Positions 3,467-58,698 of a stretch of 64,000 nt of DNA are shown in pieces. Every line of letters begins with the position of its first letter. The first letter of the stretch is position 1. The stretch covers positions 62,001 through 126,000 of the forward strand of contig NBIV01000030.1 in NCBI GenBank assembly GCA_003194525.1. The letters run 5' to 3'. This stretch comes from Gracilariopsis chorda (taxonomy: Eukaryota; Rhodophyta; Florideophyceae; Gracilariales; Gracilariaceae). The notes under the pieces were generated by a model that was given only the letters and a program-made list of their open reading frames with translations, made no database searches and was not told where the DNA came from. Made by a program: the position numbers and the translations under genes.

Positions 3467-3582
3467 ACGTCTGCCTCACTATACGACCTTGCTCTGAAGC
3501 CGGGCACAATAGGTTCCATGACAGTATATCAGACCCGCAACCCTTTTTCAATCCCGCCGCTTCGAACAAGATCTTCGTGACC

Positions 3583-19677: not shown

Positions 19678-20054
19678 CTAGTGTCTATCTGACCAGCGAC
19701 CTCATATGAGGTCATTTTTAATTACTCTAGAACTTTATCAAAACCTTTAAACTTTTCCAAAAACTTTTTCACTTTGATCTTCTCATCATGTCTTCTACGC
19801 CGGCAGCGCTGAACCATGTCCACAACACATCACCAACAGTCGTAGCTTTCACATCAAGCACTATTGTCAATAACATTCGTACACAATGGCCCCATCCACT
19901 GATCTTATAGTTCAAAGACCACCTGGTTGGCCATGTTTCGAGTTCGAAATTTGAAATGTGGGGCCATGCGGATCAGATTTCAATTCTTTTTAAATTTTGC
20001 GTGCCGTTGCGCTGACCTCATATGAGGTCAGCGCACCGGTCCGATAGACACTAG
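19678..20054. mobile_element. 377-bp MITE (copy 1)
   Basis: The ends are CTAGTGTCTATC and GATAGACACTAG, an inverted repeat, and close to each end lies TGACCTCATATGAGGTCA or a near version of it, itself an 18-bp palindrome. A copy of almost the same length and sequence lies at 45887-46262, so this is a dispersed family. CTAG at both ends may be the target duplication. No coding capacity; the autonomous partner was not identified. Confidence 0.85.
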
Positions 20055-20409
20055 GGTCTCAAGAGATTGTGGAAAGTACCCTTCCCCACAAGGGTAATCT
20101 GGAACATCTTGTTCATTTGATTGCCCTGTAGAGACGCACATCCACCCACCTTAATCATATTTTTACAGGAAGCTTACAACACAATCTAGCCAACAATTCC
20201 TCTCACCCCCAGCCGTGCTACACTCTCGCAGACTAAACAACACCTCTTTCCTAATTCTCCCCTTCGAATCGTCCTCAAAAGCGCTACAGAGCTATCTGAA
20301 ACACCCAACTCTTTCCCAAAATGTCAAAATGGTTCGAAATCTACGTTTTCAATGCAACTCTGATCACTTACAGAGTCCTTAAGAGTACTTCATGCCAGTC
20401 CACGAATCG

Positions 20410-27173: not shown

Positions 27174-30100
27174 CTATGATAGAGCCTTAGTAAATATGTC
27201 GGCATGCATGTTTTCTGTGCAACAGTAATTCAAGACGATTTCTTTTTGCTGAACACCTTCTTGTACGAAATGATATCGTAGTTCAACATGCTTCGCTCTT
27301 CTGCCACCAGCGGCCCAATCTAACACTCCGGTGTGGTCCTCATAAATGATTGTAGTTTTTTCAACTGATACAAGCTTTGTTTCACATAATAAATTGCGAA
27401 CCCACCTCACTTGCTTGAAGCAATCTGATAATGAAATATATTCAGCCTCTGTAGTTGACGTTGCAATGCTTCTCTGTTTCAATGTTTTCCACAATATGAC
27501 GTTGCCAAAAAGTAACACACAGAATCCACTTGTAGATTTGCGATCCGTGTCATCTCCAGCCCAATCTGCGTCAGCGTATACACACAGGACGGGGTGGGTT
27601 TCGGAATTTTTCTTGATGTGCATGCCTTAATCTTTTGTACCATTCAAGTAACGCATGACTCTCTTCACTGCAGTCCATTGTATGACTGTAGGCCTTGACT
27701 GAGCCCGTGAAAGAATATTGACGGCAGCACAGATATCTGGCCTAGTTCGTGAAGATAGATACAGCAAGGACCCTATTGCCTCCTGATAAAGTTCTTTAGG
27801 CTTGAATAGGCCTGCTTCTGATGCTGATACAGGTCTGTATCCCGGACTCAGTGGTGTAGTCACCTCCTTGGAGGTGTTCATGTTGAAATTCTGTAGGATT
27901 CGTTCAACAGCCGGACGTTGGTGCAGAGTTATTCCATTTTATTCACGTTGCGTGTAAACCCCCAAGAAGCTGTCTGTAGAAGAGCATTCTTTCATTTCAA
28001 ACTCTGAAAAGAGCATACTTTTCACCTTGCTGGTTTTCTTGGGGTAATTGCCGATCAACAAGAGATCATCAACATATAATAGTATCCATAATTGGTGTCC
28101 TCCCCAGGTTTTGTAGAAGGAGCAAGGGTCTGTCATGCATTGTATAAAGCCTAAGTTCTTCAACCTTTGGGTGAACAGTCGGCTCCAAATTGCATTGGAT
28201 TGCTTCAGACCATATATTGACCGGTTCAATTTGAGTACTTGATTCTTTTGTAAACCAAGGTCCAGACCTTTGGGTGGAGACATATAGACTGGCTTCTTTT
28301 CATCGATATGTCCGTTCAGAAATGCACATTTGACATCCAACTGCTGTATTTCAAAGTCAAACCTAGCTGCCAATGTCAATGCTAGTCGTACAGTTCCAAA
28401 GTCAACAACTGGAGAGTAGACACCTGTGACATTCCCTTGTTGGCACATTTTAGCTACAAGGTGAGCCTTGTATCTTGTGATAGAGCCATCATCGTCATGC
28501 TTTTGAGGGAACACGAGTTTGGAATCTATGATATGCTCTCCAACAGGCTTGTCCACAACTCCCCATGTCTTCATCGACATAAGCGAAGAGAGTTCTTCGT
28601 CAATAGCTTTTCTCCATCTTTGCCACTCAGGCGAATCTCTCGCGTCCGGCAAGCTTTCAGGGACGGTACTTATTGGTAGTTCTCTTGTCACAAGACTGTT
28701 ATGGTGTCTGTCTTGATAACGATTTGGAGGGTTTCGCTGACGGTCAGGGTAGCGGCGTACTGGGTAGTGTGTCAAGAATTCTTGCATGCTGGGTGTCATT
28801 GGGAAATGGTCCGATTCTGCTTCAAGTACTTGATCGTCCTCTTCATCTTCATTCGTACCACTTTCCACGACTTCATCTGCATTTTCATTACTTCCACCAT
28901 GTCCAGTTTCCAGCTCCTCTTCATTGTCAGCTTCAGCACCATCTGGCCCCTCTGTTTCTGGCTCTCCATCATCATCTGAGTCAGCTGATTCTTGCTGTCG
29001 GTCAGCAATTTCAGGTATGGCATTCAATTCCATCTGTTCTTGAGTGTTGAACAATCGTCTTCCTGGAAAAAATCTTCATTAAAACTGACATGCCTTGCGA
29101 ACGTAATATCTCCACGTTCAATGTCATAGACGCGATAATTCTGGTGTGGGAGGCAGCGTAAGAGAATTCCACGGCGAGCTTTGCTCTCTAACTTTTTCCG
29201 TTTAGCTACATGAACCCAGACCTCACATCCAAACGTTCTTAAAGAGGTAACGTTTGGTATCCTTCCAGTGAGCGTTTTGTGAGGTGTCTTCCCATCAGTG
29301 GCTCCACAACCGATGATGTTCATTGTTCTGGTAGCAGTAACGACTGCTTCAGCCCAGAACTTCTGTGGGAGGCCTGCATGTCATAACATTGCTCTATTCA
29401 TGTCCATAAACGACCTGTTAAATCGTTCTGCGACTCCATTTTGCTGCGGAGTGTATGGAGCACTGTTCTCCCAATCTATTGCGACTTCAGAGAGATATTT
29501 TCGGAGTGAAATGTACTCTGGACCATTATCAGAGTAAAAGACCTTGATCTTTCTTTCAGCCTGTCTCTCAAACTTTAATTGAAAGCATCTGAACTCCTGT
29601 ATCAGTTTCTTTCTTTTCGTCATGAGGCGTACGTCCTTTTACCTCGACTTTTTATCGATGAAAGACACAAATTATCTCTTCCTTCCGATGCTTGGGGTAC
29701 TCATAGGACCGCATATGTCCGTGTATATCACATCCCCGATCATAGCAGCATCATTACTCCTGCTGCTTAGACTCCTTCGTGTCATCCTTCCTTCAATGCA
29801 CGGAGTGCAGTCGGCACTGTGCTCTGGAGATACATTGAGGTCCAGTCCATGAACAGTGTTTTTGCTTGTCATTCGTCGTATTCTCTGGATTCCGATATGT
29901 CCGAATCTCTCATGCCAGAGCTGTAGGCCTTGCGTTTCTTTCGCTACATATGCAACATGCGGAGCTGGACTGCCCCAAATCTGATAAACCCCTGACCTTT
30001 TTGGTGCTCTGATCATGACATCCGATCCTCTGATGAGACACACCGTTGAATCGAAAGATATTTGGTACTGTTCCTCCGTTAGGCGAGAGCAAGATATTAA

Positions 30101-31114
30101 GTTGCAGTCCATATCTTCAACGTAAAGAACGTCATGCAGTAGTATCTTTACATAACGTCTTCCAGGCTGCAATACATTAAGACAAAGGTGTCCTGTTTTT
30201 GATGCTGTCACACCCCTACCATCGCCCAACACAATGGCTCTGTGCTGGGAGCGGTGAAATAAATGCGCCAAAGCACGGTCCCCAATCATTTTACTAGTTG
30301 CACCAGAGTCAACAATGAATTGGTGGTCTCCTTGTCTGGTGACGAGAGCTCGATGGGTACTTGGATCACCTGCACGATGATATGGTTTGACCGATCTATA
30401 GTCTCGTTTGTAGTGTCCTTTCCGGCCACATTTGAAAACTCTACCCTTCACTTTCGCTTGTAATGCCCTCTCCGTACCCAAAGGACCGGCCGGGCCTGAT
30501 CCTTCTGTTTTCGTCTCTGAAGTCCTGGTGTCATACTCTTGGAGAAGTCGAGCGGTTACCTTCTCCCAGGACAACTCCTCGTCCGACAAAGTCTGAAGGG
30601 CTGATATTACTGGACCATATGGCGTCTCTCCAGTAGAACCAAAACTGGAGAACAGGATAGCAATCTGCATACTATTCCCTATGGGACTTCCCATAGCTTC
30701 CAATCTTGAGAATACAGACTCGAAATCATCCACGTAGTCCGACATTACTGTTCCTTCAGTAAATCGAGTTTGGTGTAGCTTCGTTTGCAACTGTACCCTT
30801 GTCGCAGCATTCTCCGTTGCATACCTTTCACGCAGTTTTCGATACATAACGAATGGGTTGTGACGTTCGGAGGCAACCGCCCGTAGTGGTTTGTCTCCAA
30901 GAGATTGCACAAGATACATGCGAGCCTTCGAGAGGTTTTGCTTCACTTCCATAGGTAGGGCATCAATTGTCTCTTCCCCAACGGCATCTTCTAGAACTAA
31001 ATTCAGGAGTTCCTTTGATTCCAGTAGTGCTTCTATTCGCATCATCCACAAAGTAAAGTCCTCGTGGCGTTTTTCAGAGAAGCGAGGAACCTTCCTTGGA
31101 CTGTCGTCATCCAT
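27174..31114 (-). pseudogene. gag-pol of copia element A, with in-frame stops
   Basis: Starts at the ATG at 31114 (MDDDSPRKVPRF). Gag is followed by a damaged zinc knuckle (VFKCGRKGHYKRDYR near 30430; first and last Cys lost), protease motif VDSGATSKMIG (near 30300), integrase HHCC domain (LWHERFGHIG ... CTPC, near 29930-29800), integrase core (TDICGPM, then DNGPEY near 29520), RT (QLDVKCAFLNG near 28330; YVDD at about 28076-28065) and RNase H (YADADWAGD near 27580; STTEAEY near 27460). The frame is crossed by TAA twice near 29680-29640, TGA near 29380, a frame change near 29040, TAA near 27940, TAA at about 27627 and TAG near 27175. It cannot make a full polyprotein. Confidence 0.9.
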
Positions 31115-31216
31115 AGCAGCACTGAAGCAAAGTCCTGTAACACTTTGAGAAAGCAATTAAGGAACGGCTTCTTTTAGTTCGGAGCGTTGATTGCCAGTGG
31201 AGCGCGATGCTACCGC

Positions 31217-41055: not shown

Positions 41056-42404
41056 CATGCCTGACAATCCCTCCCCCTGGTCTTTTAACTCGGGCTTGAT
41101 GGCTCTCTGCGAAGTGCAGGACAGAGAGGAAGAATCTTTACAAGCTCTTCTCGCTTGCGCCTCGGCAATTGCAAGTCAATGTGATACACAGACGTCAAGC
41201 TACAGAGGACGCACCTCTCATACCACCCAACATCAGTCAAGGTCCTTGCCAGTGGTACGAAGACTATCTACAGCCGAACCCCGTTTACCCAGCCTCAACA
41301 TTTCGTAACATTTTTCGTTCGCCCCTCGCTCTCTACTGGCACATCCACGACGATCTTTTCGAGGCAGAACTAGCTCTGCGGCATCGAAAAGACGCGTTTG
41401 GACTCCGCAGTCACAGCAGTCACCAAAAGGTATTGTTTTGCCTTCGTAGGTTGGGCAGCAACGTATCTTACTACGAAACGGATGACATGTGCCGCATGGC
41501 ACCAGAGACAGAACGCCAGTACTTTCGTTTGTTTTTACGTGCAGTCCTAGCCCAATAAGAACCCATGTTCTTGAACCACGAGCCGGAAGTTCATGAGCTG
41601 CAAGAGATCATCGAGCAGTACAACGAAGCTGGATTCCTTGGTTTTATTGGGTGTCTCGATTGTATGCATGTAAAGTGGAAGAATTGTCTTCGGTCTTTAA
41701 AGGGGCAATACCACAACCCGAAGGAGAGAAAAATTGCTAGAATCAGCTATGAGGCCCTCTGCGATCGCAACCTTCACTGCTGGAATTGGTACGCGGGACG
41801 ATGTGGTGGTAATAATGACATCTCGGTGCTGGACAACAGCCCTTTGGTGAACGACATCCTAGCAACCCGACGCCAAGTGTACATTCCAGGAGGTTACAAA
41901 GTGAATGGAGAGCTTCGTTTGTGGCTTCTTTACATTCTTGTGGACGACATATATCCGCCGTGGGCTATATTTGTTGGACCAAACCATTCGCTGGTGAATG
42001 AGAAGCAACTGAATATGACGAAGCGGCAGGAGGCGGTGAGAAAGAATATTGAAGGATTCTTCGGTTGTTGGTAAGAGCGTTTCATAATCCTTCAGCAGGA
42101 AAGGATGGAATGGAGTGACAAAGGGATCATCTTAATCCCAAATGTATGGGTTGTGCTGCACAATATGGTCGTGAAGATGCATCTTCAGGGGGAGCTTAAC
42201 GTGAAAGGACTTCAGGAATACAGCGCCGGTCTTGTTGACGAGTTCTTTTTGGTTCCTGCTGGGGGTACATCACAGAATATTGGCGAACAAAGTAATGCCA
42301 CACATGGCAGTGAGCCTGCTGCAGAACTGGCAAGTTTAATTGAGCGACACGAGGTGGTCACGCACCGCCCTGCTCACAAAAAGCTCTATTCAGCCCTAAA
42401 TTAA
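41056..42404 (+). pseudogene. PIF/Harbinger-like nuclease (plant-transposon type)
   Basis: The N-terminus MPDNPSPWSFNSGLMALC from ATG 41056 is in another frame than the rest; the frame shifts near 41165. From 41169 one frame runs to 42404 with TAA at 41556-41558 and 42072-42074. It shows the landmarks of the Harbinger-type transposase: GFIGCLDCMHVKWKNC (first Asp), NPKERK, GRCGGNNDISVLDNSP (second Asp), YPPWAIFV and RKNIEGFFGCW (Glu), followed by IPNVWVVLHNMVV. All three catalytic residues are still present, so inactivation rests on the two stops and the frameshift. The partner gene lies tail to tail at 42652-43423. Confidence 0.8.
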
Positions 42405-45516: not shown

Positions 45517-45890
45517 CTAGTGTCTATCCGCCCGGATGTAATGTAGCTAAATGATTATTTTTGAAGGGTTTGAACCTTTCATACACGCGTGAGGAACGGT
45601 GTTTTTGAATCAAAAGTACGTTTTTGATATCAAAAAAGCCGGTTTTCTGAAGCTTTGTAGTAAACTAGTCATATTTTACAAGCACATCTCTATCAAACCA
45701 TCTGGTTGTATTACGTTTCTGCTTCTCACTTAGCATAAACAACAGAAGCTTAGAATGTTTGCTATACAAAAACATGTTGTATAACTTATACAGCTACAAA
45801 AGGCAAAAAAATCCGATCAAAATAACTAAAATTAAATGTAAAGTTGATTGTTTTGACCTCATATGAGGTCAGCGGTCCGCTAAACACTAG
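45517..45890. mobile_element. MITE (copy 2), related to the others only at its ends
   Basis: Begins CTAGTGTCTATCC and ends AACACTAG; TGACCTCATATGAGGTCA stands near the right end (about 45855-45872) but not near the left end. The inside differs from copies 1 and 3. It shares its right CTAG with copy 3, so the two stand end to end. Confidence 0.65.
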
Positions 45891-46262
45891 TGTCTATCTG
45901 ACCAGCGACCTCATATGAGGTCAATATTAATTACCCTAGAACTTTATCAAAACCTTAAAAAGTTTTCAAAACCTTTTTCACTTTGATATTCTCATCATGT
46001 CTTCTACGCCGGCAGCGCTGAACCATGTCCAAAACACATCACCAACAGTCGTAGCTGTCACATCAAGCACTATCGTCAAAAACAATCGTACAAAATGGCC
46101 CCGTCCACAGATCTTTTAGTTCAAAGACCACCTGGTTAGCCATGTTTCAAGTTCGAAATTTGAAATGTGGGGCCATGCGGATCAGATTTCAATTTTTTTT
46201 AATTTTGCGTGCCGTTGCTCTGACCTCATATGAGGTCAGCGCACTGGTCCGATAGACACTAG
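45887..46262. mobile_element. 376-bp MITE (copy 3)
   Basis: Nearly the same sequence as 19678-20054 along the whole length, including both TGACCTCATATGAGGTCA palindromes and the CTAGTGTCTATC inverted ends. Differences are scattered substitutions and one-base indels. Confidence 0.9.
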
Positions 46263-46909
46263 GACTGACCATCAGCAGTACGGTAGATCTAAGGTTTTGA
46301 TTGCGTAGATTATCTGCAGCTGTAGTCTCTTTGCTACATTGTACAGGGCTTTGTCGCTCGTTGTGTTGTACGGTCACTACCGGGTTTCCTTTCTACCTTG
46401 CATCTTGGTTCTTTGTCGCAGTTTGTGCCTATATACTACATTGGCGTTGCACGCCTGTGCTGGTACTCTCGAGCTGCGAATATATTTTTGATCTACTCTC
46501 CAGCAAATAAGGGTACAAAGAGGACTGTCATCGTCCGGTGTCGTGAAATCGTGCAACATGACACTCACAGGTTGCTCACCCTTGTACTTTCACAGCAATT
46601 CTCATCCGTGTGGGAAAGGTCAGGATAAATATGGCGGGATCTGTACAGTCCGTGATATTTCAGAAAATTGTGAAATGAGCCTTATCATAAGGCTCTACCT
46701 ACCGACATTCCCAAATCTGCAAAACCGCACTCGGTGACCTCCACGGAGGGGTTTCGGCCACAGTCTCCAGAACCCCGCAACTTTATTCCTTCGCAGCCGC
46801 CTCTACTTTCCAGCGTCGCCCCTTCCGCATAGCTCAAAAGGACAGACGGAGCTCAAATTCCCATTCGCCGAAGTTTCGCTGTCTGAAACAGCCGGAGCCA
46901 TTCTCGGGG
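46263..46909. other. upstream region of the large ORF, no gene seen
   Basis: Short ORFs without motifs. The last 170 bp are C-rich and pyrimidine-rich and probably hold the core promoter and leader of the gene starting at 46910. No clear TATA box. Confidence 0.4.
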
Positions 46910-49900
46910 ATGGCGTCAAAAATGAAAGAGGTCGTCAGGGATTCGTGGAACCAGCCAACTGAAGGTCCTTGCGTTGCTTGTGGTGAAAATGACAAACGGA
47001 GGCCAACGAAAGCTTCATTCTTAAGTCGTACACAGCTCCTGAAACGATCTCAAGTCGATACAGGAACCCTTCCAAACCCTTTCGTCCGGAAGGATCCTGG
47101 CTTTTTCCTGCTTTGTACATCATGCCGCTCTCCTAAGAACGGCTGGAATGTGATTTGCGATGTAAGAAGGTACGGCAGCAAGTCACGTTCTGCTCTTCAA
47201 GCATGGAAAGTTCGAGCCTCTGCACGTGAAGCTAAGCAACGTACAGACTGTTACATATGTATAAAACTTGGTTGTCATTTTGATTCAAGCATCCGCACAA
47301 AAGCAAACTTTAAGTTGTTCTCCGTTCTGCTATATAGCGCTTGCGTACAAGAGCTCTTTTGCTCCGAGCTTTCTAGAAGGTCTGGACTTTGTGTTGAGGA
47401 TGGGCGATTTTTGCTGCATCAGATTGGAGAAGTTCGGTTCTGTTCTCTGCACCACAATCAAACGAGACACGCAAATGATATTGCTGCTACTGAGGAACCA
47501 ACTCTGCGGGGTGCCTTATCTGGGTACTGTATATTTAAAGGTCAAGGTTGTTCCGGGTTAAGTGCTGTGCTGAGGCCGCTTCCTAATCTCAAGATGGAAA
47601 CGCTGGAGGACACAGAGGTTTTTTGTGAGTATGATGATGCTGTTGACATCTATTCAGGTGGCAGTCTCAAGTTTGAGGATGTTGCGGGGAAGCATGCTTG
47701 CGGCAATTGTCGCTACATCGTTACAAGAGGAGCGCAAGGTATTCAGCCTTCCTTCGATACAGTGACTCTCACGGACGCAACTGATAGATGTTTAGTGGAC
47801 TGCATTTTGTTTGCACTAGACAAGGCCGCTTGTAATACTGTGTTTATGAGGGGCAATGACGGTATCACGCACGCAGCCAACGATTTGAGGTCTGCAGCAA
47901 TCGCTCCTTTTTCGGAAGCCCCTGCGTCTCGGTTTCTTCCCATAAAGGCTGTGTTTACTACTCGGAAAGCCTTGGCCGCTCTTAGCACAAACGGGTTTGA
48001 CGTGACAAACCGAACGGTTGAGTCGAGAATTGGTTCGGTTCTGTCGGCAAAGGATGTGCATCTTTATTCGCTTTCTAGAAAGTTTCGATGTTATGCACAA
48101 GTCGGGGCACTTTGCCCAATCGTTGGGGTTGTTATGACGCTAACAAAAGGTGAAAGTGTGACAATCACACTAAAAGAGAAGCGCAAAATGCTGGCAGAGA
48201 CTGGAAACAGATTTATGCGAAGCAAAGAAAAGTACTATCGTGGTGATTGGTCACTCTCTGATGAGATAGCAGCAGTTCCCCCTCGTCTTTGGGCTTCATT
48301 CATTCTCGAGATGGCTTCTGAAAAGCAACTGCTCTCCTGGAAAGTTGCAGCTGCAGCAATAGGCAAGAAAGTTGTGGATATGTTTCCAGTCCTTAATGAC
48401 TTCACCAACATTCCGAGAGAGGAATTTGACAACTTCGCACAGCAACGCTTTGTTCATAAAAGAGCAGACGAAACAGGGCTCAGAAGGGTTGACTTTTTAC
48501 TTTGCATTAGAGCTTTGAAAGTTATCGAACAGATGACATACTCTCAGTCGCGGTTACGTATCGGTCCTCTCACTATGACACTTTCAATTGCCGGTATTGC
48601 CGAGTCTAGTCCCTCATGGACTAGTGTTCTTCACTCTCTTGGCCTAGCGACGTCTTACGACGCTATGGAAAGCTTTAAGAAAAGTCTAATAGCTAAGAGG
48701 GAGCAGTCAACAAGAGGGGCATTCGAAGGTGTCAATACTACTGACCGATTGGTTTCAATTCAGCTGGACAACTTTGACATCTTACCCTTTCACAGCATGA
48801 AAGCGTCGGGTAAGGCCTTACCCATGGTAAGCGGTACTGCAACTCAAGGTATTGTGCAATCTAGAAAGCGTCCCAAACTTCATTCTGCGGTAGGAATTAA
48901 CCGCAGTACCGAAGAACCTGGGGCCTTGGTTGAGGCAGACACTTCATGGAGGAGTCCCTCAACAGTCCTCGTGGATCGTGCCACTTTCAGTTCAAGTTTT
49001 AACTCTGTCGCGGACAAGAATATCCTTGAAGACTTTTATGATATGGTGTTTGGAGTTGTGCTCAGCCGCCGGGATGATTTGCTGGGATCGTCGGCTTCTT
49101 CACAGTTCCAGCGAAGGACTGCAACATTGCCGTACAAGAATCAGGGGGTTAACTTCCGCACTCTTCTTTTGTCATGCTTCAGTCCGCATGGTGGCTCCGA
49201 TCGTTCTGCTCCCTACCTGTTCGACCAAGATGTCTTGTTCGTGGATATATGTCGAATGAGTGCTGCAGACATTCTCACCATACATCAGAAGTTATCCCTC
49301 ATTAAGGACTTACTGCAACTCGGGGAGGACGGAAGTCTTAAATATGTCGTTGTTAGCGGGGATCAGCCCACGTACCGCATGCTTGTCAAGATCTGGAGAC
49401 AATCTTTTCTTGAATCCAAAAGGGACACGGCCGAGAACTCACCAACAAATGAAGTTAAGGTTCACGAGTGGTTAATCCCGTTCCCGGGTTTCTTCCACGT
49501 CGAAAAGCAGAGCCTTTATCCATTGTGCAAAGAAATGCTACACGGGCTTGGGCTGACCGAGCTTTCCGGATGCTGTGGGCTCTCTAAGAGCCAAGTAGAC
49601 AACATTCTGAAGCACAGTCATGCCAGAAATAACCGCGCGGTCGTATTCAGCATTTGCGCAGCTCTCGTGATACACACAGTTGACCTGATTCAGGCAGAAC
49701 GCCCTGAGTTGAAGGACTCTGTCATGGAGATTGTGAACCGAGATCACTCTTCTACCAAGTCTCAGTCAACACTCTTCAAGTGCACTACAGATCTAGTGAC
49801 CGGTTCAATGATTGAAGCAGGTAGACAACTTCGAAAAGGTGTTTTCGACCTGTTTGCAAACGATCCGAACGGAACGCACATTGTGCACACAGTGCTCTTT

Positions 49901-52900
49901 ACGTGCCTCCTACCGACTGTGGGTTTTCACGTCCTTTCACGCACGGGTCACACAGATGTTCTAGACAGCTTCTGGCTCCGATTGAACAACGTTCTGCACA
50001 CGTCCGGTCATTTGAAGTACCAAGAGTTGTACCTCTTCTACTCATTTTTTCGATCCATCATGCCACGGATTGTATTCGAGGACCTCTACAACAACAAGCC
50101 CGGTGCCCTCGTAGCTCGTGTTCCTTCTTTTACGGCAGGTTCAAGGTCCGCCTATGACGAACGTGGATGGACGTACGTACACTTGGATGAGGCGTTGGAG
50201 ATGTTGATCATCAGACTAGTGAAAGGTCTCAATCAAGTCACTCTGCCGTACCTGGAGAGCGCCGGAGCCTGGCTTTTAGACGTGGCTAGTGCTAGGCTCT
50301 TAATAAGGAACGTAACGGCTGCTGCCCGCTTGTACAGGCCATCGCGCAGTGGGGATGACACTGGGGAAGGAATCGGGCCCCTTCTTCATTACGAAAAGAG
50401 CTCTATTCAAAGCAAAAGTGTGAAGGCCATGGTGGAACTTATGCGGGCAAAAGGGTTCCTCGGACATGACCACAGGAGTGGAGATAAACTTTGCAACGTT
50501 CTCGGTGACCATACGGCAACCTTGAATGACGCAAAGGCTCAGGAGCTAATCATGAAGTGTGACATTTACGGGAAGAAGACAGCTGAGCTGCACGCAAGCG
50601 CCCTCTTTCCTGATGTTTTCGGGAAGTTAACAAAAGAATATTACGAGACGGAATTTAGTGGAAAGCGGTTCAGAGGCGTGTGGACGAAGGCTCGACAGAT
50701 ACCGATGGCAGGTATCGTGATGGAGTCAGAAAAGAAGCACACAGTTCTAAAGTCATCTAAAGTTACGAAAGACCCAAAGAAGGCATTATCTGATCGTCGG
50801 TATGTTCTCAGCAAAGTAATGACTACTCTAACGCTAGCTGAACATGCTGCGTTGAGTTCCGGAGATCCCGAAGGTGCAGAACATGCTAGAAAGCAATGGA
50901 ATGTGTTATATTCCGCCCGTCATATGGCCTCCCCCTTTGCAGATGCCTACAGGTCTTTCGAGCAAGGCGCAGCTGGCATGCGCCATGCGCAAAAGAGTCA
51001 TATTCTGAATGCTTCAAACTTAGAAGGGTTTCAGGAAGGCGAAGATGGCGACGATGTAGGCATTCCGGTTCGGGAAACCAAGGCAGTTTCGTTTTATTAC
51101 GACTATCAGTTTCCTTCATATGCATCAGTCATGGTTGATGTGATGAACCACATATGGACTCGTGGAACCGACGGAAGACGAGGAAACTCCATCTTCCATG
51201 TCACAGTAATGAAGCTTAAGCATTTCCTTAGACCGTGGTTCTCCGGCTCTAGAGGCAAACAATTACGGCAACTGCACCTACATGTTGATGACCCCTCCAT
51301 TGTAATCCCCCAGAAGCATGGGGAGCAAGCAAGACGGGATGCGACGCGTAGCATGGACGAGAACACGGCAAGAAACGGAAGTGATGAACTGAACAGCATA
51401 GGGTTCTTGCTCCCAATCACTGTTCCCTGGGGAACAATTACGAGCTCAAGACGTAGCCGAGATGCAGTAAGCTCAGTGCACTTATTCTGCGGGGCAGTTG
51501 CTGCTATGGAACTGGCGGAGGAGAGCAGCATTGATGTGTCTGTCTTTTTGTATGGAGGATGCTTCTGCTTTAAAAGCAGCTGCGTGGGTAAAGGCTTCGA
51601 AGACCTCCTACCCGAATTGGCACTGCGCACCGACATCGGCAGCTTCCCTCGGGACGGAGAGGTGTTTATCGGTCTCAAGGAAGATCTCTTATCAATTGGA
51701 TGCAGCAACGGAGAAGGTGCACCAGGGCAAGCAGTTAGCTCAGATTCATCACAGGCAACAACTGCTAACAACGGACCCACAGTATTACCGTCTGGAGTCA
51801 GTCATCCCGATATGGCTGGATACAATCCCCGAAATGAGCTTGGTGAACGTAGAAATCAAACAGAAGAGGATGATTTGCTTCGAGTTCCAAGGACAGCTGT
51901 ATTGATGGTATCGAATGGCGGTGGACTACAAATATCAGGTGTTTGTATTAAGCATGGTGAGGCTGAGACGAGATTCGTAGCTGCGTTCAAGCATTTTGTA
52001 TCACCACTGCTCTCGGAGGAGAGTGAGAAGGATGTATTCAAGTATAATGATGGGCACCACTCTCCTTTGCCTAGTCATCTAAGGTGTGCAAGTATCGTCT
52101 TGTCTAAAGACACAGACGTGACAATGATACTTTGCCTTGCAGAGCGCATGCATGGAAGAGGTGTCCTACACGTGCTTGGCGAACACGTCATAGAGATCGA
52201 TACGCTGGTGCGTAATCTTTCTCTAAATGGGAGCAACCAAAGTACGCTTGCCTGTGTTTATACGCTCGCTGGGTGCGACTTCACACCCGGTTCGTATGGG
52301 GTTCGCCATAGCCATTTTTTAAGCGCAGCAGTAAGACAGAGAGTAATGTTGGGACACTTGGAAAGTAACTCAGATCCTACAGCCTTCGAACTGGCAACTT
52401 TATTGGCTTATCTGGAGAAGAAAGGCTATAGAAAATTGCTTACGTTGGCAGAGAAAGATGACGCAATGCAGAAGTGGAACACCGAGTCGTGCGATGCCGC
52501 AGAGATTCGAAGGAGAACGAGGACAATATTTGCAAGCCCTCATGTAGTGGGCTCTGAGGAGTGGGTTTTGGATGCACGGAGACATATATATGACGGGGCG
52601 AGGTCGGTCGCCGAACTAATCGCCCCAAAGCAGCACATTCATCTCCAAGCATCCCGTTCCAAGTTCGTTGTGTTCACGTATTGGTCGCAAGCGCATTGGG
52701 ATGACCTTTCTCCTGACGTTTTGAAAGGATGTGATGAGAGTAACGGTTTCGATGTTTCGGGGAGTGTTCTGTTAGAACGGGAGGACGATGTGAAGATTCT
52801 GTCCAAACAAATGAATGAACTTGTCGCAAGATGCAAGTGCAAAGGAAATTGTTCGAACAGAGTTTGCTCTTGTATTAAAAGAGACAGAAAGTGTATCAGG

Positions 52901-53119
52901 TGCGAATGTGACGCAGGCACTTGCCGTAATAGAGCTACCACATCCGGTATGATATACAATGCTAACGCAGAAGACGCCGATGGCATGGAAGTTGAAGAAG
53001 ATCAAGAGGACGGCTCCGATGATGAAGTGGTGACATCATTGCAAGTGACGGAGTTAAATTGTGACCTAGAGTGCAACTTAGCTAACGATGATGAAGAGAC
53101 AGATGCATGCTCTCCCTGA
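46910..53119 (+). CDS. giant 2069-residue protein: Cys pairs, DUF6589-like region, FEN1-like nuclease region, CXC domain
   Basis: An uninterrupted 6.2-kb single-exon ORF from ATG 46910. The N-terminus carries CX2C pairs (CVAC near residue 21, CTSC near 69, CGNC near 265). Residues about 610-900 have the DUF6589 signature order: QLDNFD (near 619), VVSGDQPTYR (near 816) and FPGFFHVEKQ (near 858), then a helical part ending LKHSHARNNRAV. Residues about 1680-1800 resemble a FEN1/XPG-type PIN nuclease: HGEAETRF, LSKDTDVTMIL and TLAGCDF, giving E, D-x-D and D in the expected order. Near residues 1975-2010 CKCKGNCSNRVCSCIK and CIRCECDAGTC form a tesmin/TSO1-type CXC DNA-binding domain; the tail is acidic. 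Similar multi-domain genes are known as repeated, transposon-like genes in cnidarians and fish. It may be a mobile-element gene or one tamed by the host. Intactness amid decayed elements argues for selection. Confidence 0.8.
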   Translation: MASKMKEVVRDSWNQPTEGPCVACGENDKRRPTKASFLSRTQLLKRSQVDTGTLPNPFVRKDPGFFLLCTSCRSPKNGWNVICDVRRYGSKSRSALQAWKVRASAREAKQRTDCYICIKLGCHFDSSIRTKANFKLFSVLLYSACVQELFCSELSRRSGLCVEDGRFLLHQIGEVRFCSLHHNQTRHANDIAATEEPTLRGALSGYCIFKGQGCSGLSAVLRPLPNLKMETLEDTEVFCEYDDAVDIYSGGSLKFEDVAGKHACGNCRYIVTRGAQGIQPSFDTVTLTDATDRCLVDCILFALDKAACNTVFMRGNDGITHAANDLRSAAIAPFSEAPASRFLPIKAVFTTRKALAALSTNGFDVTNRTVESRIGSVLSAKDVHLYSLSRKFRCYAQVGALCPIVGVVMTLTKGESVTITLKEKRKMLAETGNRFMRSKEKYYRGDWSLSDEIAAVPPRLWASFILEMASEKQLLSWKVAAAAIGKKVVDMFPVLNDFTNIPREEFDNFAQQRFVHKRADETGLRRVDFLLCIRALKVIEQMTYSQSRLRIGPLTMTLSIAGIAESSPSWTSVLHSLGLATSYDAMESFKKSLIAKREQSTRGAFEGVNTTDRLVSIQLDNFDILPFHSMKASGKALPMVSGTATQGIVQSRKRPKLHSAVGINRSTEEPGALVEADTSWRSPSTVLVDRATFSSSFNSVADKNILEDFYDMVFGVVLSRRDDLLGSSASSQFQRRTATLPYKNQGVNFRTLLLSCFSPHGGSDRSAPYLFDQDVLFVDICRMSAADILTIHQKLSLIKDLLQLGEDGSLKYVVVSGDQPTYRMLVKIWRQSFLESKRDTAENSPTNEVKVHEWLIPFPGFFHVEKQSLYPLCKEMLHGLGLTELSGCCGLSKSQVDNILKHSHARNNRAVVFSICAALVIHTVDLIQAERPELKDSVMEIVNRDHSSTKSQSTLFKCTTDLVTGSMIEAGRQLRKGVFDLFANDPNGTHIVHTVLFTCLLPTVGFHVLSRTGHTDVLDSFWLRLNNVLHTSGHLKYQELYLFYSFFRSIMPRIVFEDLYNNKPGALVARVPSFTAGSRSAYDERGWTYVHLDEALEMLIIRLVKGLNQVTLPYLESAGAWLLDVASARLLIRNVTAAARLYRPSRSGDDTGEGIGPLLHYEKSSIQSKSVKAMVELMRAKGFLGHDHRSGDKLCNVLGDHTATLNDAKAQELIMKCDIYGKKTAELHASALFPDVFGKLTKEYYETEFSGKRFRGVWTKARQIPMAGIVMESEKKHTVLKSSKVTKDPKKALSDRRYVLSKVMTTLTLAEHAALSSGDPEGAEHARKQWNVLYSARHMASPFADAYRSFEQGAAGMRHAQKSHILNASNLEGFQEGEDGDDVGIPVRETKAVSFYYDYQFPSYASVMVDVMNHIWTRGTDGRRGNSIFHVTVMKLKHFLRPWFSGSRGKQLRQLHLHVDDPSIVIPQKHGEQARRDATRSMDENTARNGSDELNSIGFLLPITVPWGTITSSRRSRDAVSSVHLFCGAVAAMELAEESSIDVSVFLYGGCFCFKSSCVGKGFEDLLPELALRTDIGSFPRDGEVFIGLKEDLLSIGCSNGEGAPGQAVSSDSSQATTANNGPTVLPSGVSHPDMAGYNPRNELGERRNQTEEDDLLRVPRTAVLMVSNGGGLQISGVCIKHGEAETRFVAAFKHFVSPLLSEESEKDVFKYNDGHHSPLPSHLRCASIVLSKDTDVTMILCLAERMHGRGVLHVLGEHVIEIDTLVRNLSLNGSNQSTLACVYTLAGCDFTPGSYGVRHSHFLSAAVRQRVMLGHLESNSDPTAFELATLLAYLEKKGYRKLLTLAEKDDAMQKWNTESCDAAEIRRRTRTIFASPHVVGSEEWVLDARRHIYDGARSVAELIAPKQHIHLQASRSKFVVFTYWSQAHWDDLSPDVLKGCDESNGFDVSGSVLLEREDDVKILSKQMNELVARCKCKGNCSNRVCSCIKRDRKCIRCECDAGTCRNRATTSGMIYNANAEDADGMEVEEDQEDGSDDEVVTSLQVTELNCDLECNLANDDEETDACSP

Positions 53120-53216
53120 CTATTCAAGCCTGAGTACGCACATTTACTGAAGGTCGAAATACAAATGTACCTCACAGCAAGTCCTTGCTGCCCGTTTATT
53201 GAGACACATCTTGCAG
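53120..53216. terminator. shared 3' region of two convergent genes
   Basis: Only 97 bp separate the stop codons of the large ORF and the methyltransferase gene, so their 3' untranslated regions must overlap or be very short. Confidence 0.4.
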
Positions 53217-54740
53217 TTACGGGACGTCAAAGAAAGACAATTTCCCACATCCGTCTCTTAGTCCTTTAGGAAATGCCTTTTCAAACGAAGGAAGTAGAAG
53301 TACAGCTCGTGATGCGCCATGACAAGCCCGGGCTATCCAGCTCATGTATAGAAGTTCCACATCGTTTGGAGGGGGATACTTTCCTAGGTATTCCCGGTTC
53401 CTCCAAATGAAAATGCCCAAGTCCTGATAACCGTGCTTTTGAGGATGCGAGTGGAACGCAAAGTATCCCTGCTGGTGCTTAAAAGAGAGACAGCCAGCTG
53501 GTATCTTGACCAGCATTATTGCTTTAGATGAAAGCCTGTGTGTTCTTTCCAATATGCCGTGCGTTTTTCCGAGGGGAAGTAGAACGCAGCGACAGTACGG
53601 TTTAGAACCCCTAGCTCCCTTATCGAACTCATCCAGCATGCGGTGCAGAAACTGCGTTTCGAAAGGGGGATTTCCTCCGGCCCCTTCTATTGTGTCCTCT
53701 ACGTCTTCCCAAATTCCGATGGACCCAAATAAATCATCACCTTCGTCCCGGCTGCAGTAGTTAGGAAGAACACCACTTTCATTCAGCGAATCTGCAAATA
53801 GTTCTACTGTGATACATGAGGTCAAGGACCATAACGCGTAGAGATCCGGGGTTACAGTTCTAGAAAGTGAGTTGAAGCGATCCTCAAACTTTCGTTGAAC
53901 TACGGTGCAGAGGGACTGCAAGAAATTAGTATCACTGTAGCCTGGCAAAAGCTCTTGGTAGCTTCCTTTTAAACCCCTTGGTGTACTTGACGGCTTGATT
54001 GTCAACACAGCAGAACAATCAGTACGCTTGGCATTATAGACCTGTGAGGAAAACCTCCAGTACAGCCTTTCAGCTAGCTCTCTCCGCACAACTGCTTTTC
54101 TATTTCTGATAAACCCGTCTTCACATAATAAAGGCACACAAAAGCAATAGCATAGGCAAGCAGCATTTGCTAGGCTTTCATTACCGATGCAGAGAACAGA
54201 AATGTCATGCCCTGGAACTTTCAAGGGGCCTAAAAGAGACCGAAAAGCACTATCAGACTCCAACTGCTGCAAACATTCCTTTGGGTCAGTTGGAGGCTTG
54301 TGACGGCCCCACCGCATACGCAAACCGTAGGAGTAATTACCGAAGGTCATTGTCGACGAAATAGACCTTTCTCCAAAGGCCAGAGCCACTTTCGGGAGAA
54401 TGAGGAAACCGCACGGCAATGCAGCTTCTAATTGAGGCCTTGGTTGGCCGTGTTCTCGACGAGAACACGAAAGATTGCTGAGAAAAGAATATCCAACGAT
54501 GCAGCAGTCTGAGCCGCTTGAAGCGCGCTCTTTTGTGGCGGTGGACGCTGCCGTAATCGTGAGTACGGGACTTCGCTTGTTGGTGGACAAAGAGTTCTTT
54601 TGGTGAAGGTGATGCTGTGGTGATGTGGCAACGGTCAGAAGGCGGTTCCCATTGGGCCCTGGAAGAGCATTTTGATATCCCTTTGCTTGGCGAGCAATCG
54701 CACGTTTTCTTAATATTTCCAAAATTGCTTCCAATCTCAT
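53217..54740 (-). CDS. NPPF-motif N6-adenine methyltransferase, PCIF1-like
   Basis: A 507-residue intact ORF from ATG 54740. The diagnostic part is FGSIGIWEDV ... EGAGGNPPFETQFLHRM (NPPF near residues 356-359), matching the catalytic loop of the PCIF1/CAPAM family, in which FGS...E...NPPF precedes a helix; NPPF binds the target adenine in N6-adenine methyltransferases. Before it, RRELAERLYWRFSS and an aromatic, Cys-rich helix region fit the family's helical domain. The first 150 residues are low in order and hold no WW domain. Known PCIF1 methylates the cap-adjacent 2'-O-methyladenosine of mRNA; relatives in protists and algae may act on other RNA or DNA, so the substrate here is open. It lies tail to tail with the giant ORF, 97 bp apart. 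Confidence 0.7.
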   Translation of the reverse strand: MRLEAILEILRKRAIARQAKGYQNALPGPNGNRLLTVATSPQHHLHQKNSLSTNKRSPVLTITAASTATKERASSGSDCCIVGYSFLSNLSCSRREHGQPRPQLEAALPCGFLILPKVALAFGERSISSTMTFGNYSYGLRMRWGRHKPPTDPKECLQQLESDSAFRSLLGPLKVPGHDISVLCIGNESLANAACLCYCFCVPLLCEDGFIRNRKAVVRRELAERLYWRFSSQVYNAKRTDCSAVLTIKPSSTPRGLKGSYQELLPGYSDTNFLQSLCTVVQRKFEDRFNSLSRTVTPDLYALWSLTSCITVELFADSLNESGVLPNYCSRDEGDDLFGSIGIWEDVEDTIEGAGGNPPFETQFLHRMLDEFDKGARGSKPYCRCVLLPLGKTHGILERTHRLSSKAIMLVKIPAGCLSFKHQQGYFAFHSHPQKHGYQDLGIFIWRNREYLGKYPPPNDVELLYMSWIARACHGASRAVLLLPSFEKAFPKGLRDGCGKLSFFDVP

Positions 54741-55631
54741 GGACTGTGTAGGGAGGTCTATGCCTTTTGCGTACTGTTTTATACAGCTTGGCAGGGCGAG
54801 TTTAGAGACAATGATTGCTGGCTACTCCTGTATCGTACGCTTCCTGTCCCCCATCGTGAATGGCCAGCCTCATCGAGGCTTGCCACCGACGCTGGCCATG
54901 CACGACGAGGGACACGAAACAAACGATATCGGAAGAAAGGGATTGTCTGCCCAGTCCGTAACGGAAGTGTACTACCTTTGCCCATCACACTTAAGTGTCT
55001 CCGTTAACATTCTCGGCGGCGGTGCTTCTAGGGACTGAGCTATGGCTCAGACGAGGCGTACTATTCAGCCTGAGCCTCTCTTCTCCCGCCCTATTTCACG
55101 GAAGAGAAATGAATGTCGCCAGCGTGATATATCATAGAAACGCGTGCACAGGGTTAGACGTTTGGTGTTTCTCAAACGAAAGCAGACGAAACAAAAGCTC
55201 AGGTGAAACTGTCATAGCAGGCTGATGTATCGTTTCCATTCCTATTCTTCGTAACGCAACGAGTTGCCATACTTGTTTTACAACTGTTCATGATGAGCTT
55301 TGGAGTAGAACGTTTATCATACTCTAAGACAAAATGCATAGGCCTTTGGTCTTTCACTGCCAGCAGCTGTGCACGGCGTTGAGAAAAGCTCCAGCGGATA
55401 CCGTCTGCACTTTTTACGGTGCACTCATGTTCCTATCTCCACCTCCTTCGAATCATACATGTACAACACGAATGGGGAATGGGTTTCACTTCTCGCTCAA
55501 ATGGAGGACACGAATCGGCTCATCACGCCCACTCAAAATCCGACACAACACATAGAATGCGAGAGTATCCCACATATACACCACCGCCATCGCCCTGTCA
55601 TAAGCCCGTCCAAAAGGAAACACGGCGACAC
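54741..55631. other. intergenic, no gene seen
   Basis: 5' flank of the methyltransferase gene and 3' flank of HisHF. Short ORFs only. Confidence 0.45.
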
Positions 55632-57452
55632 TTACGTTTGAATTACCTCAGATTCCACACCAACACTTCTCTCCACAACTTCATCAAGCGACCCAGATAT
55701 CCGAACAACAGTTCCATGTTCTAACATATGCTGTTTCACATCTCCAATGGAAACCTCCTTACGATGGAAGATACCCGCCGCAAGCGCCGCCTCAACATCC
55801 GTGGCATCAAAGCATTCCGTGAAATGCTGCGGTTTGCCAGCACCCGAGCTAGCAATGACAGGAATAGAAACCGCTTTGCGAACCATATCTATAAGCTGGA
55901 GGTCATACCCATTGTTCTGACCGTCTTGGTCCATAGAATTGAGCAATATCTCCCCTGCGCCGAGTTTTTCAGCGGCCGTTACCAGCTGTACCACATCGAT
56001 ATTCCGCCCTTCTCGTCCCCCTTTCACAGTGCATTGATACCAACACACCCGCCCATCGGGAAGAGTCACCGTGGTAAATGGGGTATCACTATGGTTTTCG
56101 ACGTACACGCGTTGTGGGTCCACAGAGACCACAACCGCCTGCGCACCATACACGTACGAGATGCGCTCAATGGATGAAGTTCCATCCGCGCCCTGTTTCA
56201 GAAACCGCTCAGCCGCATACACAGCATCACTGCCAAGAGAAACCTTATCAGCGCCAGCTCGAAAGTACATGCTAGCCACATCAAGAGCGGAATAATGGGT
56301 GCCATTTCGATCGGTGTAGTCGCGAATGCCGCCGCCAATACAAAGAGGAACGAAGACTTCCTTCGAAGTATGCTCGAGCACTTGGATCATGGGGGCGGAG
56401 CCGACAGGTTCACCTCGGAATGAGGTGATGTTAAGAAAACAAATTTCATCAGCGCCTTCCTCAAAATAGCGTTTGGCGAGCTCTACTGGCTTGCCAAGGT
56501 TGCGAACTTGTTTAGAATCGGTGTGACGAACGTCATATTGATCACCTTTTGTGACGACGAGATCGCCGTCATCATTTTCTCGTACATCGAGACAGGCGAC
56601 GATTCGTTTCGCAAGGCCGGATTGTCGGGCTTTGGAGGCGGCTGGACTGGAAAGTGGGATGGTGACGGTTGAAGAGCGGGTTGGTTCGGTGGATTTGGAG
56701 GATGGATTTCCGGAGTAGAGAAAGTTGCGGATGAGGCGAAGACCATCGGGTCCGGATTTCTCGGGATGAAATTGGGTAGCACAGATTTGGCCGCGCTGAA
56801 GAATGGAGAGATACGGTTCTCCATGGGTGGTAGTGGCGACATTAGTATTGTGCAAGGACTGCAAGACATCAGTTCCGATGCGATACGAATGCACGAAGTA
56901 AAAGCGGGACGGAGACGAGTGGTGGTTTGAATCGCGTTGTAGCAAAGGCATGGGAGACTGAACATCAACAGTATTCCATCCAATGTGCGGAACAGCTAAA
57001 CCTTGAGTATGATCGACGCTAAAGCGACGGACCATACCCGGAAACAAGGCGAGTCCAGGAATCTGAGGCGACTCTTCGGAGCCTTCGAAGAGGGTATGCA
57101 AGCCGAGGCAAATGCCCAAAAAGGGGCGATCATCTTGTATATATCGCTTCAAAGCGGTGACGAAACCGCGATCGTGGAGGTTTTCCATGGCGGCGCCGAA
57201 GGAGCCCACGCCGGGAAAGATGAGTTTGGAGGCATTGCTGATATCGGAGGCTGTGTTTGCCCAGCGTATGTGGCAGTCGAAGAGACGGAGGGCATTTTCG
57301 AGGGAGCGGACGTTGCCGGCGCCGTAATCAAGCACGGTGACGGACGGGCGCGAGGCACACGCGGAGGGGAGCAGCCGCCGGCGACGATGCGCGCGCGGAG
57401 CGACGGCAGTGGACGGTAACGGCGTTGGCGCGACGAACGCACTGGTGGCCAT
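55632..57452 (-). CDS. HIS7: imidazole glycerol phosphate synthase HisHF, plastid-targeted
   Basis: A 606-residue bifunctional enzyme of histidine biosynthesis: the glutaminase half (HisH) releases ammonia, the cyclase half (HisF) turns PRFAR into imidazole glycerol phosphate and AICAR. I start at ATG 57452 (MATSAFVAP); upstream codons of the same frame are Arg-rich and lack an ATG in good position. Residues 1-37 are a basic, Ser/Ala-rich plastid transit peptide. HisH: VLDYGAGNVRS, GICLGLHTLF with the nucleophile Cys near 115, and HPEKSG with His and Glu near 229-231. HisF from about 279: KRIVACLDV (catalytic Asp), LNITSFRGEP as in yeast His7, CIGGGIRDYT and VIASSGAGK. The fused form is typical of fungi, plants and algae. 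It is divergent from TPI with 307 bp between the start codons. Confidence 0.97.
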   Translation of the reverse strand: MATSAFVAPTPLPSTAVAPRAHRRRRLLPSACASRPSVTVLDYGAGNVRSLENALRLFDCHIRWANTASDISNASKLIFPGVGSFGAAMENLHDRGFVTALKRYIQDDRPFLGICLGLHTLFEGSEESPQIPGLALFPGMVRRFSVDHTQGLAVPHIGWNTVDVQSPMPLLQRDSNHHSSPSRFYFVHSYRIGTDVLQSLHNTNVATTTHGEPYLSILQRGQICATQFHPEKSGPDGLRLIRNFLYSGNPSSKSTEPTRSSTVTIPLSSPAASKARQSGLAKRIVACLDVRENDDGDLVVTKGDQYDVRHTDSKQVRNLGKPVELAKRYFEEGADEICFLNITSFRGEPVGSAPMIQVLEHTSKEVFVPLCIGGGIRDYTDRNGTHYSALDVASMYFRAGADKVSLGSDAVYAAERFLKQGADGTSSIERISYVYGAQAVVVSVDPQRVYVENHSDTPFTTVTLPDGRVCWYQCTVKGGREGRNIDVVQLVTAAEKLGAGEILLNSMDQDGQNNGYDLQLIDMVRKAVSIPVIASSGAGKPQHFTECFDATDVEAALAAGIFHRKEVSIGDVKQHMLEHGTVVRISGSLDEVVERSVGVESEVIQT

Positions 57453-57759
57453 TTTGCGCGGGCGGCGGCGGTGCGGCGCGGAGATCTGCAGCAGCGCATC
57501 ATCATCGCCTCCGCGCCGCTGCGGCCGCCCCACGGCACGTATGCCACGGGGACACCTGGACACGCGTGAAAATGTACACGTGTAACACGTGGGGCGGCTT
57601 CGAGCGGTGGCGAAGGCAGCGAGCGGCGCGGCGGTTGATCTCGAACGAGCACCGTCCATTCCGCGGACGAGGCGGCAGCCGTGCGGAGAGCCACTGGCGA
57701 ACAAACAAGAGCGGCAGCGACCGTGTCGTTGCCGCCGTCCGCATCTGCTCCGCAACACA
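57453..57759. promoter_or_regulatory. divergent promoter region of HisHF and TPI
   Basis: 307 bp, strongly GC-rich, between the two start codons. No TATA box is seen. Frames on both strands remain open because of the GC content, but lack ATG starts in good context. Confidence 0.6.
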
Positions 57760-58698
57760 ATGGCGCCTCCTGCTTTCGTCACTTCCACTGCCTCCGCTGC
57801 TCTGACCTCGGGCTTGTCCCATTTGGGACTCGGCGTCGTCTCCCCGCGCCGCCCACTTTACGCCCCCAACACCAATGCTGGAAGCCAGCCGCGCTTCTAT
57901 ATGGCCTCATCCTCCCCCGATGGGCGCCGCTTTTTTGTCGGCGGCAATTGGAAGTGTAACTTGAACAAGAGCGCCATTGCTGACTTAGTCGCTGCGTTTA
58001 ATGAAGCCCCACCTTTGGATCGTGACGGTGTTGATGTCGTTGTTGCACCGCCTTCCATTTACGTTGACTCCACCAGGCAGATCTTGCGAAACGACTTTGC
58101 CGTATCCGCGCAAAACTCGTGGATTTCCAAGGGCGGCGCGTTTACGGGCGAGTTGGATGCTACTATGATTAAGGACGTCGGCGCAGAATGGGTTATTCTT
58201 GGCCATTCTGAACGCCGGCATATCCCTCAGCTCAAGGAAACTGACGAGACCGTTGCAAAAAAGGCCAAGTATGCTTTGGAAAACGCTGACTTGAGCGTTA
58301 TATTTTGCATTGGAGAGTTGTTGGAGGAGCGCGAGGCTGGACAAACCATTGCTGTTTGTGAACGTCAGTTGAACGCTTTGAAGCAAGCCATCTCCGATTG
58401 GACTCGCGTCGTCATTGCTTATGAACCTGTTTGGGCCATTGGAACCGGAAAGGTTGCCACACCTGAACAGGCGGAAGACGTGCATCGTAGTTTGAGATTG
58501 TGGTTGAAGCAAAACGTTTCGGAGAGCGTCTCCGATCAAACTAGGATATTGTACGGTGGAAGTGTATCGCCTGCCAACTGCGTTGAGCTCGCCAAGCAGG
58601 ACAATATTGATGGCTTTTTGGTTGGAGGGGCCAGTATGAAGCCTACCTTCATGGAAATTGTTGATTCCTACAAGGTCACTTTAGCGGGCGCTGTTTAG
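57760..58698 (+). CDS. TPI: triosephosphate isomerase, probably plastid-targeted
   Basis: A 312-residue protein that interconverts dihydroxyacetone phosphate and glyceraldehyde 3-phosphate. Start at ATG 57760 (MAPPAFVTSTAS); the first 50 residues are a Ser/Ala/Leu-rich leader ending before the second Met (MASSSPDGRRFF), so a shorter cytosolic form from that Met is conceivable. The enzyme core has GGNWKCN (Lys near 65), VILGHSERR (His near 149), VIAYEPVWAIGTGK (Glu near 222) and ILYGGSVSPAN, all intact. The core of about 260 residues has the usual length for one subunit of the dimer. No introns. The leader opens with A-F-V, as in HisHF next to it, which points to the plastid. Confidence 0.97.
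   Translation: MAPPAFVTSTASAALTSGLSHLGLGVVSPRRPLYAPNTNAGSQPRFYMASSSPDGRRFFVGGNWKCNLNKSAIADLVAAFNEAPPLDRDGVDVVVAPPSIYVDSTRQILRNDFAVSAQNSWISKGGAFTGELDATMIKDVGAEWVILGHSERRHIPQLKETDETVAKKAKYALENADLSVIFCIGELLEEREAGQTIAVCERQLNALKQAISDWTRVVIAYEPVWAIGTGKVATPEQAEDVHRSLRLWLKQNVSESVSDQTRILYGGSVSPANCVELAKQDNIDGFLVGGASMKPTFMEIVDSYKVTLAGAV

Follow-up and report, generated by a model that had tools for sequence, protein, structure and literature searches.

A window of 64,000 nucleotides from the red alga Gracilariopsis chorda (GenBank assembly GCA_003194525.1, contig NBIV01000030.1, positions 62,001 to 126,000; here called the window) contains an intact giant open reading frame (ORF), and the question that this locus raises is to what kind of genetic unit the ORF belongs. 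An initial annotation, made from the letters of the window alone, had suggested either a mobile element or horizontal movement and had read the ORF as joining a DUF6589-like region, a FEN1-like nuclease region and a tesmin-type CXC domain. Here, we suggest that the ORF is one of two genes of an apparently autonomous DNA transposon with short CAGTCC terminal inverted repeats and 4-bp target-site duplications, which most likely falls in or near AcademX, a lineage reportedly defined in a 2020 paper by Kojima. We give this reading a probability of roughly 0.7. In this model, the giant protein would act as the transposase, while the second gene, by its sequence a PCIF1-like adenine methyltransferase of the NPPF type, is apparently an integral part of the element. 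The initial annotation had the ORF right; the mobile unit is larger, and its true ends and the second gene had been missed.

The giant ORF is a real frame and not a chance one. It runs from ATG to stop over 2069 residues with no internal stop, as the initial annotation had stated, and when the assembly that contains the window (91.3 Mb in 1081 contigs, with the window at C30:62001-126000) was searched in six frames, 36 matches were obtained, including the window copy. Two of these are further full-length, stop-free copies with 99% amino-acid identity (on C413 and C205), and the remaining 33 are older stretches with 28-52% protein identity, many of which contain stops. Of 177 candidates, 23 were scored in this search, and its counts are, therefore, lower bounds.

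At the DNA level, the three near-identical copies align with 99.4-99.5% identity across 8101-8103 bases, and in alignments that include their surroundings the similarity breaks off abruptly outside both ends. Stretches from the left and right ends each have six matches in the genome, at the same six places. These six copies comprise three that are full-length (8101, 8101 and 8100 bp) and three with internal deletions (1859 bp on C184 and 1435 bp each on C116 and C13). Counting genomic copies and looking for inverted ends or target duplications had been proposed in the initial annotation as a check, and the outcome is positive throughout: besides older relatives, there are six copies with defined ends, all of which have CAGTCC ends and terminal inverted repeats (CAGTCCrTGAkATT) at both ends, and each is flanked by an exact 4-bp target duplication that differs from site to site (TGTA, TTTG, ACTA, ATAC, CAAT and ATAT). 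The copies on C116 and C13 have an identical deletion junction in unrelated flanks; thus, this shortened form has been mobile too. At the deletion junctions, 3-5 bp of microhomology are present, which would fit interrupted gap repair after excision. The C116 copy is inserted in a repeat. Its flanks, joined with a single CAAT, match more than 10 other places across the junction, and in the three such empty sites examined CAAT is present once, as opposed to twice at the filled site. For the window copy itself, no empty site was found among 40 scored matches of its flank, which extend over no more than the first 72-82 bases of that flank. Thus, the proposal of a mobile element is borne out by ends, target duplications and an empty site, and the element is a DNA transposon that has recently moved in its host genome.

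Table 1. Coordinates of the transposon and its parts, numbered from the first base of the window
Feature	Position	Strand	Basis and remarks
Whole transposon, 8101 bp	46646..54746		Three copies in unrelated surroundings aligned; each end found six times in the genome
Left target-site duplication TGTA	46642..46645		Flank comparison
Right target-site duplication TGTA	54747..54750		Flank comparison
Left terminal inverted repeat CAGTCCGTGATATT	46646..46659	+	Identical to the right end at 12/14 bases
Right terminal inverted repeat CAGTCCATGAGATT, read inwards on the minus strand	54733..54746	-	End comparison
Giant ORF, proposed transposase and nuclease	46910..53119	+	2069 residues; frame check, genome search
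Candidate catalytic D620 (D623), D818 and E865 of a putative RNase H-like transposase core	48761..49510	+	All four residues identical in 4/4 aligned subfamilies
Pfam DUF6589 match, residues 802-923	49313-49678	+	Partly inside the candidate D-D-E core
XPG/FEN1-like nuclease region, residues 1404-1800	51119..52309	+	D1410, E1684/E1686, D1734/D1736, D1790; 17-row alignment, hhalign
Nine-cysteine motif CxCx3Cx4CxCx6CxxCxCx4C	52832..52930	+	All nine cysteines in 6/14 other element rows
PCIF1-like methyltransferase ORF, 507 residues	53217..54740	-	Pfam PCIF1_WW, 14-row alignment; probable true start Met131 (54350), inferred
NPPF motif of the methyltransferase, residues 357-360	53661..53672	-	N357, P358 and F360 identical in 5/5 sequences

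The methyltransferase gene occupies the opposite strand of the stretch that separates the giant ORF from the right end, and the two genes are convergent. Its first ATG falls within the terminal inverted repeat, and other subfamilies become similar from near residue 126-136 on (in one of the underlying listings, hits of 97% identity or more were left out); the real start is, therefore, probably Met131. The window protein matches Pfam PCIF1_WW (PF12237) over residues 308-374, a stretch that spans the NPPF motif, with an E-value of 1.9e-5 and 24.8 bits, below the curated cut-off of 31.1 bits; among the 14 fragments of the methyltransferase alignment, seven match at E-values up to 1, the best at 1.1e-8. 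In several more decayed copies of this alignment, the NPPF residues differ. A genome search with the methyltransferase gave 63 matches. With PF12237, the genome search gave 14 places, two of them above the curated cut-off, and all 14 overlap matches of the element's methyltransferase gene. Of the 13 places whose surroundings were inspected (all but C227), 12 have ORF parts or element ends next to them; the exception is C205:78 kb, where the flanks examined contain no ORF part. Since all the PCIF1-type matches resemble the element enzyme and 12 of them lie with element parts, the PCIF1-type enzymes of this host may be wholly transposon-borne.

The two genes have been inherited together over a long time. 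By comparison of hit listings by eye, the methyltransferase gene is at the 3' side of the giant ORF and convergent with it in 16 of 19 ORF loci, and it adjoins ORF remains at five more loci (C1, C268, C365, C118 and C117). At two loci of other subfamilies (L056 and L057, on C46 and C36), the methyltransferase gene adjoins N-terminal remains of the giant ORF, a layout that looks as if more internal-deletion derivatives exist in other subfamilies.

Older copies, i.e. those with 28-52% protein identity, keep the layout of the element. Putative CAGTCnnT ends were found at C228, C252, C172, C24, C14, C117, C84, C157 and C118 with a 10-base pattern and at most two mismatches, a search in which chance hits also arise. 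At C252, which belongs to another subfamily, CAAG flanks the element on both sides, and at C24 the flanks are TAAG and TAAT; at each of the other loci only one end was recognised or retrievable. One end candidate at C157 was rejected because its orientation is wrong, and the end that follows the CAGTCnnT pattern is likelier. A palindrome with 9-base arms, GAGCCTTATcATAAGGCTC, was noticed by eye 31 bases inside the left end of the window copy (window 46677-46695). It is a possible transposase site; by eye, it was not seen in the other-subfamily ends inspected.

The pattern of substitutions differs between the old and the recent divergence. In comparisons between subfamilies, both genes have 0.30-0.48 nonsynonymous changes per site, while synonymous sites are saturated at 0.78-0.94 (16 of 19 pairs), and the other three, closer pairs have ratios of nonsynonymous to synonymous change (dN/dS) of 0.71-0.96. 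By contrast, changes private to one full copy number 40 nonsynonymous and 10 synonymous in the giant ORF (4615 versus 1592 sites) and 12 and two in the methyltransferase gene (1123 versus 398 sites), and the sole real indel among the genes of the three full copies is a 1-base deletion in the methyltransferase gene on C205. In other words, both genes are constrained between subfamilies and no constraint is visible since the recent insertions, which is the pattern expected for a transposon that is under constraint during its spread. The private changes in the giant ORF look neutral, and this also bears on the idea that the copies are a duplicated, immobile host gene family. The three intact, stop-free frames would fit such a family; however, sharp ends, inverted repeats and duplications at all six sites would not, and the empty site together with the target duplications refutes it. 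We regard a host gene family as extremely improbable.

Possible functions of the giant protein are read from its motifs, which all lie in the residue ranges given in the initial annotation (QLDNFD at 618, GDQPTY at 817, HVEKQ at 863, HGEAETRF at 1682, SKDTDV at 1732, LAGCDF at 1786 and CKCKGNC at 1975). The alignments of its domains and of the methyltransferase were built from chosen stop-free fragments (13, 17 and 14 rows), and the profiles left out hits more than 95% identical to the query as well as short or repeated fragments. Among decayed copies in the 13-row alignment, the candidate catalytic E865 is replaced by D in L009 and L016 and D818 by Y in L014. Seven of the 13 fragments match Pfam DUF6589 (PF20231) at E-values up to 0.1, the best at 2e-5. 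For the FEN1-like region, the earlier proposal is supported by a profile comparison with three XPG-family proteins of the same genome, in which hhalign gave a score of 33.3; none of 300 column shuffles scored above 24.0, and the reversed profile scored 10.4. The nuclease of AcademX is of the XPG type. The nine-cysteine motif is probably metal-binding; in the eight of 14 element rows that do not keep it whole, one or more cysteines are lost or shifted. Beyond this motif, the tesmin/TSO1 CXC domain named in the initial annotation did not hold up and was rejected: a genome search with PF03638 found two other loci but no element, and in a profile comparison with the CXC domains of the genome, 34 of 300 shuffles score as high as the motif itself. 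The profile used here left out the host CXC loci (L050-L053) and kept one chance row from L049.

Taken together with the ends, these features suggest a mechanism in which the giant protein, as the transposase, would bind the CAGTCC ends. Its DUF6589-related, RNase H-like D-D-E core would cut the ends and join them to the target with a 4-bp stagger, while the XPG/FEN1-like part would probably process flaps or strands at the ends, by trimming or resolving them, and the cysteine motif would probably bind DNA. The methyltransferase, as a presumed N6-adenine enzyme, would serve the element by acting either on the transcripts of the element or on its DNA, where it could mark the ends, counter silencing or protect against cleavage by the host. 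We infer the cut-and-paste chemistry, the catalytic roles, the activity and substrate of the methyltransferase and the kinship with Academ.

Several results weigh against parts of this reading. The window ORF scores 13.3 bits against a curated DUF6589 cut-off of 27 bits, and a genome search with PF20231 recovered no element and matched a single place elsewhere, below the threshold; the support for the DUF6589-like region of the initial annotation is weak. The hhalign probability of the XPG-like profile is 17%, and 0.7-9.8% against single XPG-family proteins, and Pfam XPG_I does not detect the XPG-like region, either in the elements or in the genome search. Structure prediction, which the initial annotation had named as its refutation test, gave in two AlphaFold single-sequence runs models with a mean predicted local distance difference test (pLDDT) score of 33.8 and 31.9, which is too low to read a fold. 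The likeness to AcademX is drawn from duplication length and nuclease, and a passage of one paper names a RecQ helicase and no nuclease for Academ (PMC3627910). On the side of the second gene, one of the three full copies, that on C205, is frameshifted in the methyltransferase gene by its 1-base deletion, and three of the 19 ORF loci (two on C363 and one on C246) show no methyltransferase.

Two alternatives draw on these points. Firstly, the element could be a DNA transposon from outside Academ, of another superfamily, that has no more in common with it than the 4-bp stagger and an XPG-like nuclease. This would fit a likeness drawn from duplication length and nuclease, weak matches to DUF6589, which is an unnamed family, and the Academ literature passages available, none of which mentions a methyltransferase and one of which names a RecQ helicase. 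However, a target duplication of 3-4 bp together with a nuclease are traits of AcademX according to the part of that literature seen here (PMC10045372), and we consider a distinct superfamily rather unlikely and kinship with Academ likely. Secondly, the methyltransferase could be a captured host gene that travels as a passenger with no role in transposition, as the frameshifted copy and the three ORF loci that show no copy would allow; the C205 deletion implies that the gene may not be needed in cis. Against this, neither the position nor the orientation of the gene changes between subfamilies, although their methyltransferases have only 35-54% identity to that of the window and synonymous sites are saturated. 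Moreover, no separate host donor was seen, because each of the 14 genomic PCIF1_WW matches coincides with an element methyltransferase match, although a very divergent or intron-split donor could escape this search. We regard a mere passenger as unlikely. The converse, that a PCIF1-class N6-adenine methyltransferase is obligate in the life cycle of the transposon, whose ends or transcripts it would mark so that excision is controlled or silencing evaded, is an idea that we put forward tentatively.

An apparently autonomous two-gene transposon in or near AcademX would have several implications. An adenine-type methyltransferase has been retained within a single lineage of transposons while its members diverged deeply, and the existence of copies that moved recently and have defined ends makes its role directly testable. 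The findings also suggest that PCIF1-type enzymes may originate from, or be maintained in, transposons, and they hint that proteins of the DUF6589 type function as transposases that cut with a 4-bp stagger. In the open-licence literature searched, no report of a PCIF1-type gene in a transposon was found among the titles and abstract openings listed, and DUF6589 was not found by name. Relatives were found neither in viral contigs nor in bacterial or archaeal genomes, and a scan for prokaryotic FEN1 relatives was empty; sequence searches of the PDB gave chance-level hits or none, NCBIfam and PADLOC gave no match, and Rfam gave no hit in the 64-kb window.

The surroundings of the transposon contain other mobile sequences and host genes. 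Two 378-base copies with 94% identity (window 45887-46263 and 19678-20055), bounded by CTAGTGTCTATC and GATAGACACTAG and with the palindrome GACCTCATATGAGGTC inside, probably represent a short non-autonomous element with no relation to the 8.1-kb transposon. Pieces of Copia-type retrotransposon genes (Pfam Retrotran_gag_2, Pol_BBD, gag_pre-integrs and RVT_2) lie at window 27939-31156 on the minus strand, and a transposase fragment matching PF04827 'Plant transposon protein' (E-value 2e-33), which we take to be kin to Harbinger, lies at 41565-42074 on the plus strand. To the right of the element, a host-type fused glutamine amidotransferase and histidine biosynthesis protein (55632-57788, minus strand) overlaps by 200 bases, on the opposite strand, with a host-type triosephosphate isomerase (57589-58698, plus strand). 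ORFs with cysteine repeats of the Ephrin_rec_like and TNFR_ELAPOR1 types are present at 3577-5595 and 10834-11901 on the plus strand.

How does the element compare with known systems? By eye, the nuclease region shares with FEN1 and XPG the order EAE, DxD and GCD(F/Y) and a similar spacing between DxD and GCD; it differs in having about 30 extra residues between EAE and DxD and, again by eye, in not keeping the VFDG aspartate. With DUF6589 proteins, the likeness is in the GDQ and HxEK region, and the difference is that the window ORF stays below the curated cut-off. PCIF1 methylates mRNA caps and is longer than the element enzyme. The element enzyme resembles PCIF1/CAPAM in the PCIF1_WW profile over NPPF, whereas it is transposon-borne. 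For AcademX, target duplications of 3 or 4 bp are described, as opposed to 9 or 10 bp for AcademH, a difference that was related to the encoded helicase and nuclease in the part of the source available (PMC10045372). The element is similar to AcademX in its duplication length and its putative nuclease and differs from it in having a PCIF1-like methyltransferase as a second gene. A combination of nuclease and methyltransferase is also present in eukaryotic DNA transposons of the Mariner type, where the role of these genes in transposition was described as largely unknown and where the authors, in the passages available from their 2013 paper, were not aware of any previous description of transposon-borne methyltransferases (PMC3627910). 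However, these Mariner elements have a transposase of another superfamily, TA duplications and methyltransferases of the Methyltransf_26 or cytosine-C5 type, whereas the G. chorda element combines 4-bp duplications with a PCIF1-like, NPPF-type enzyme.

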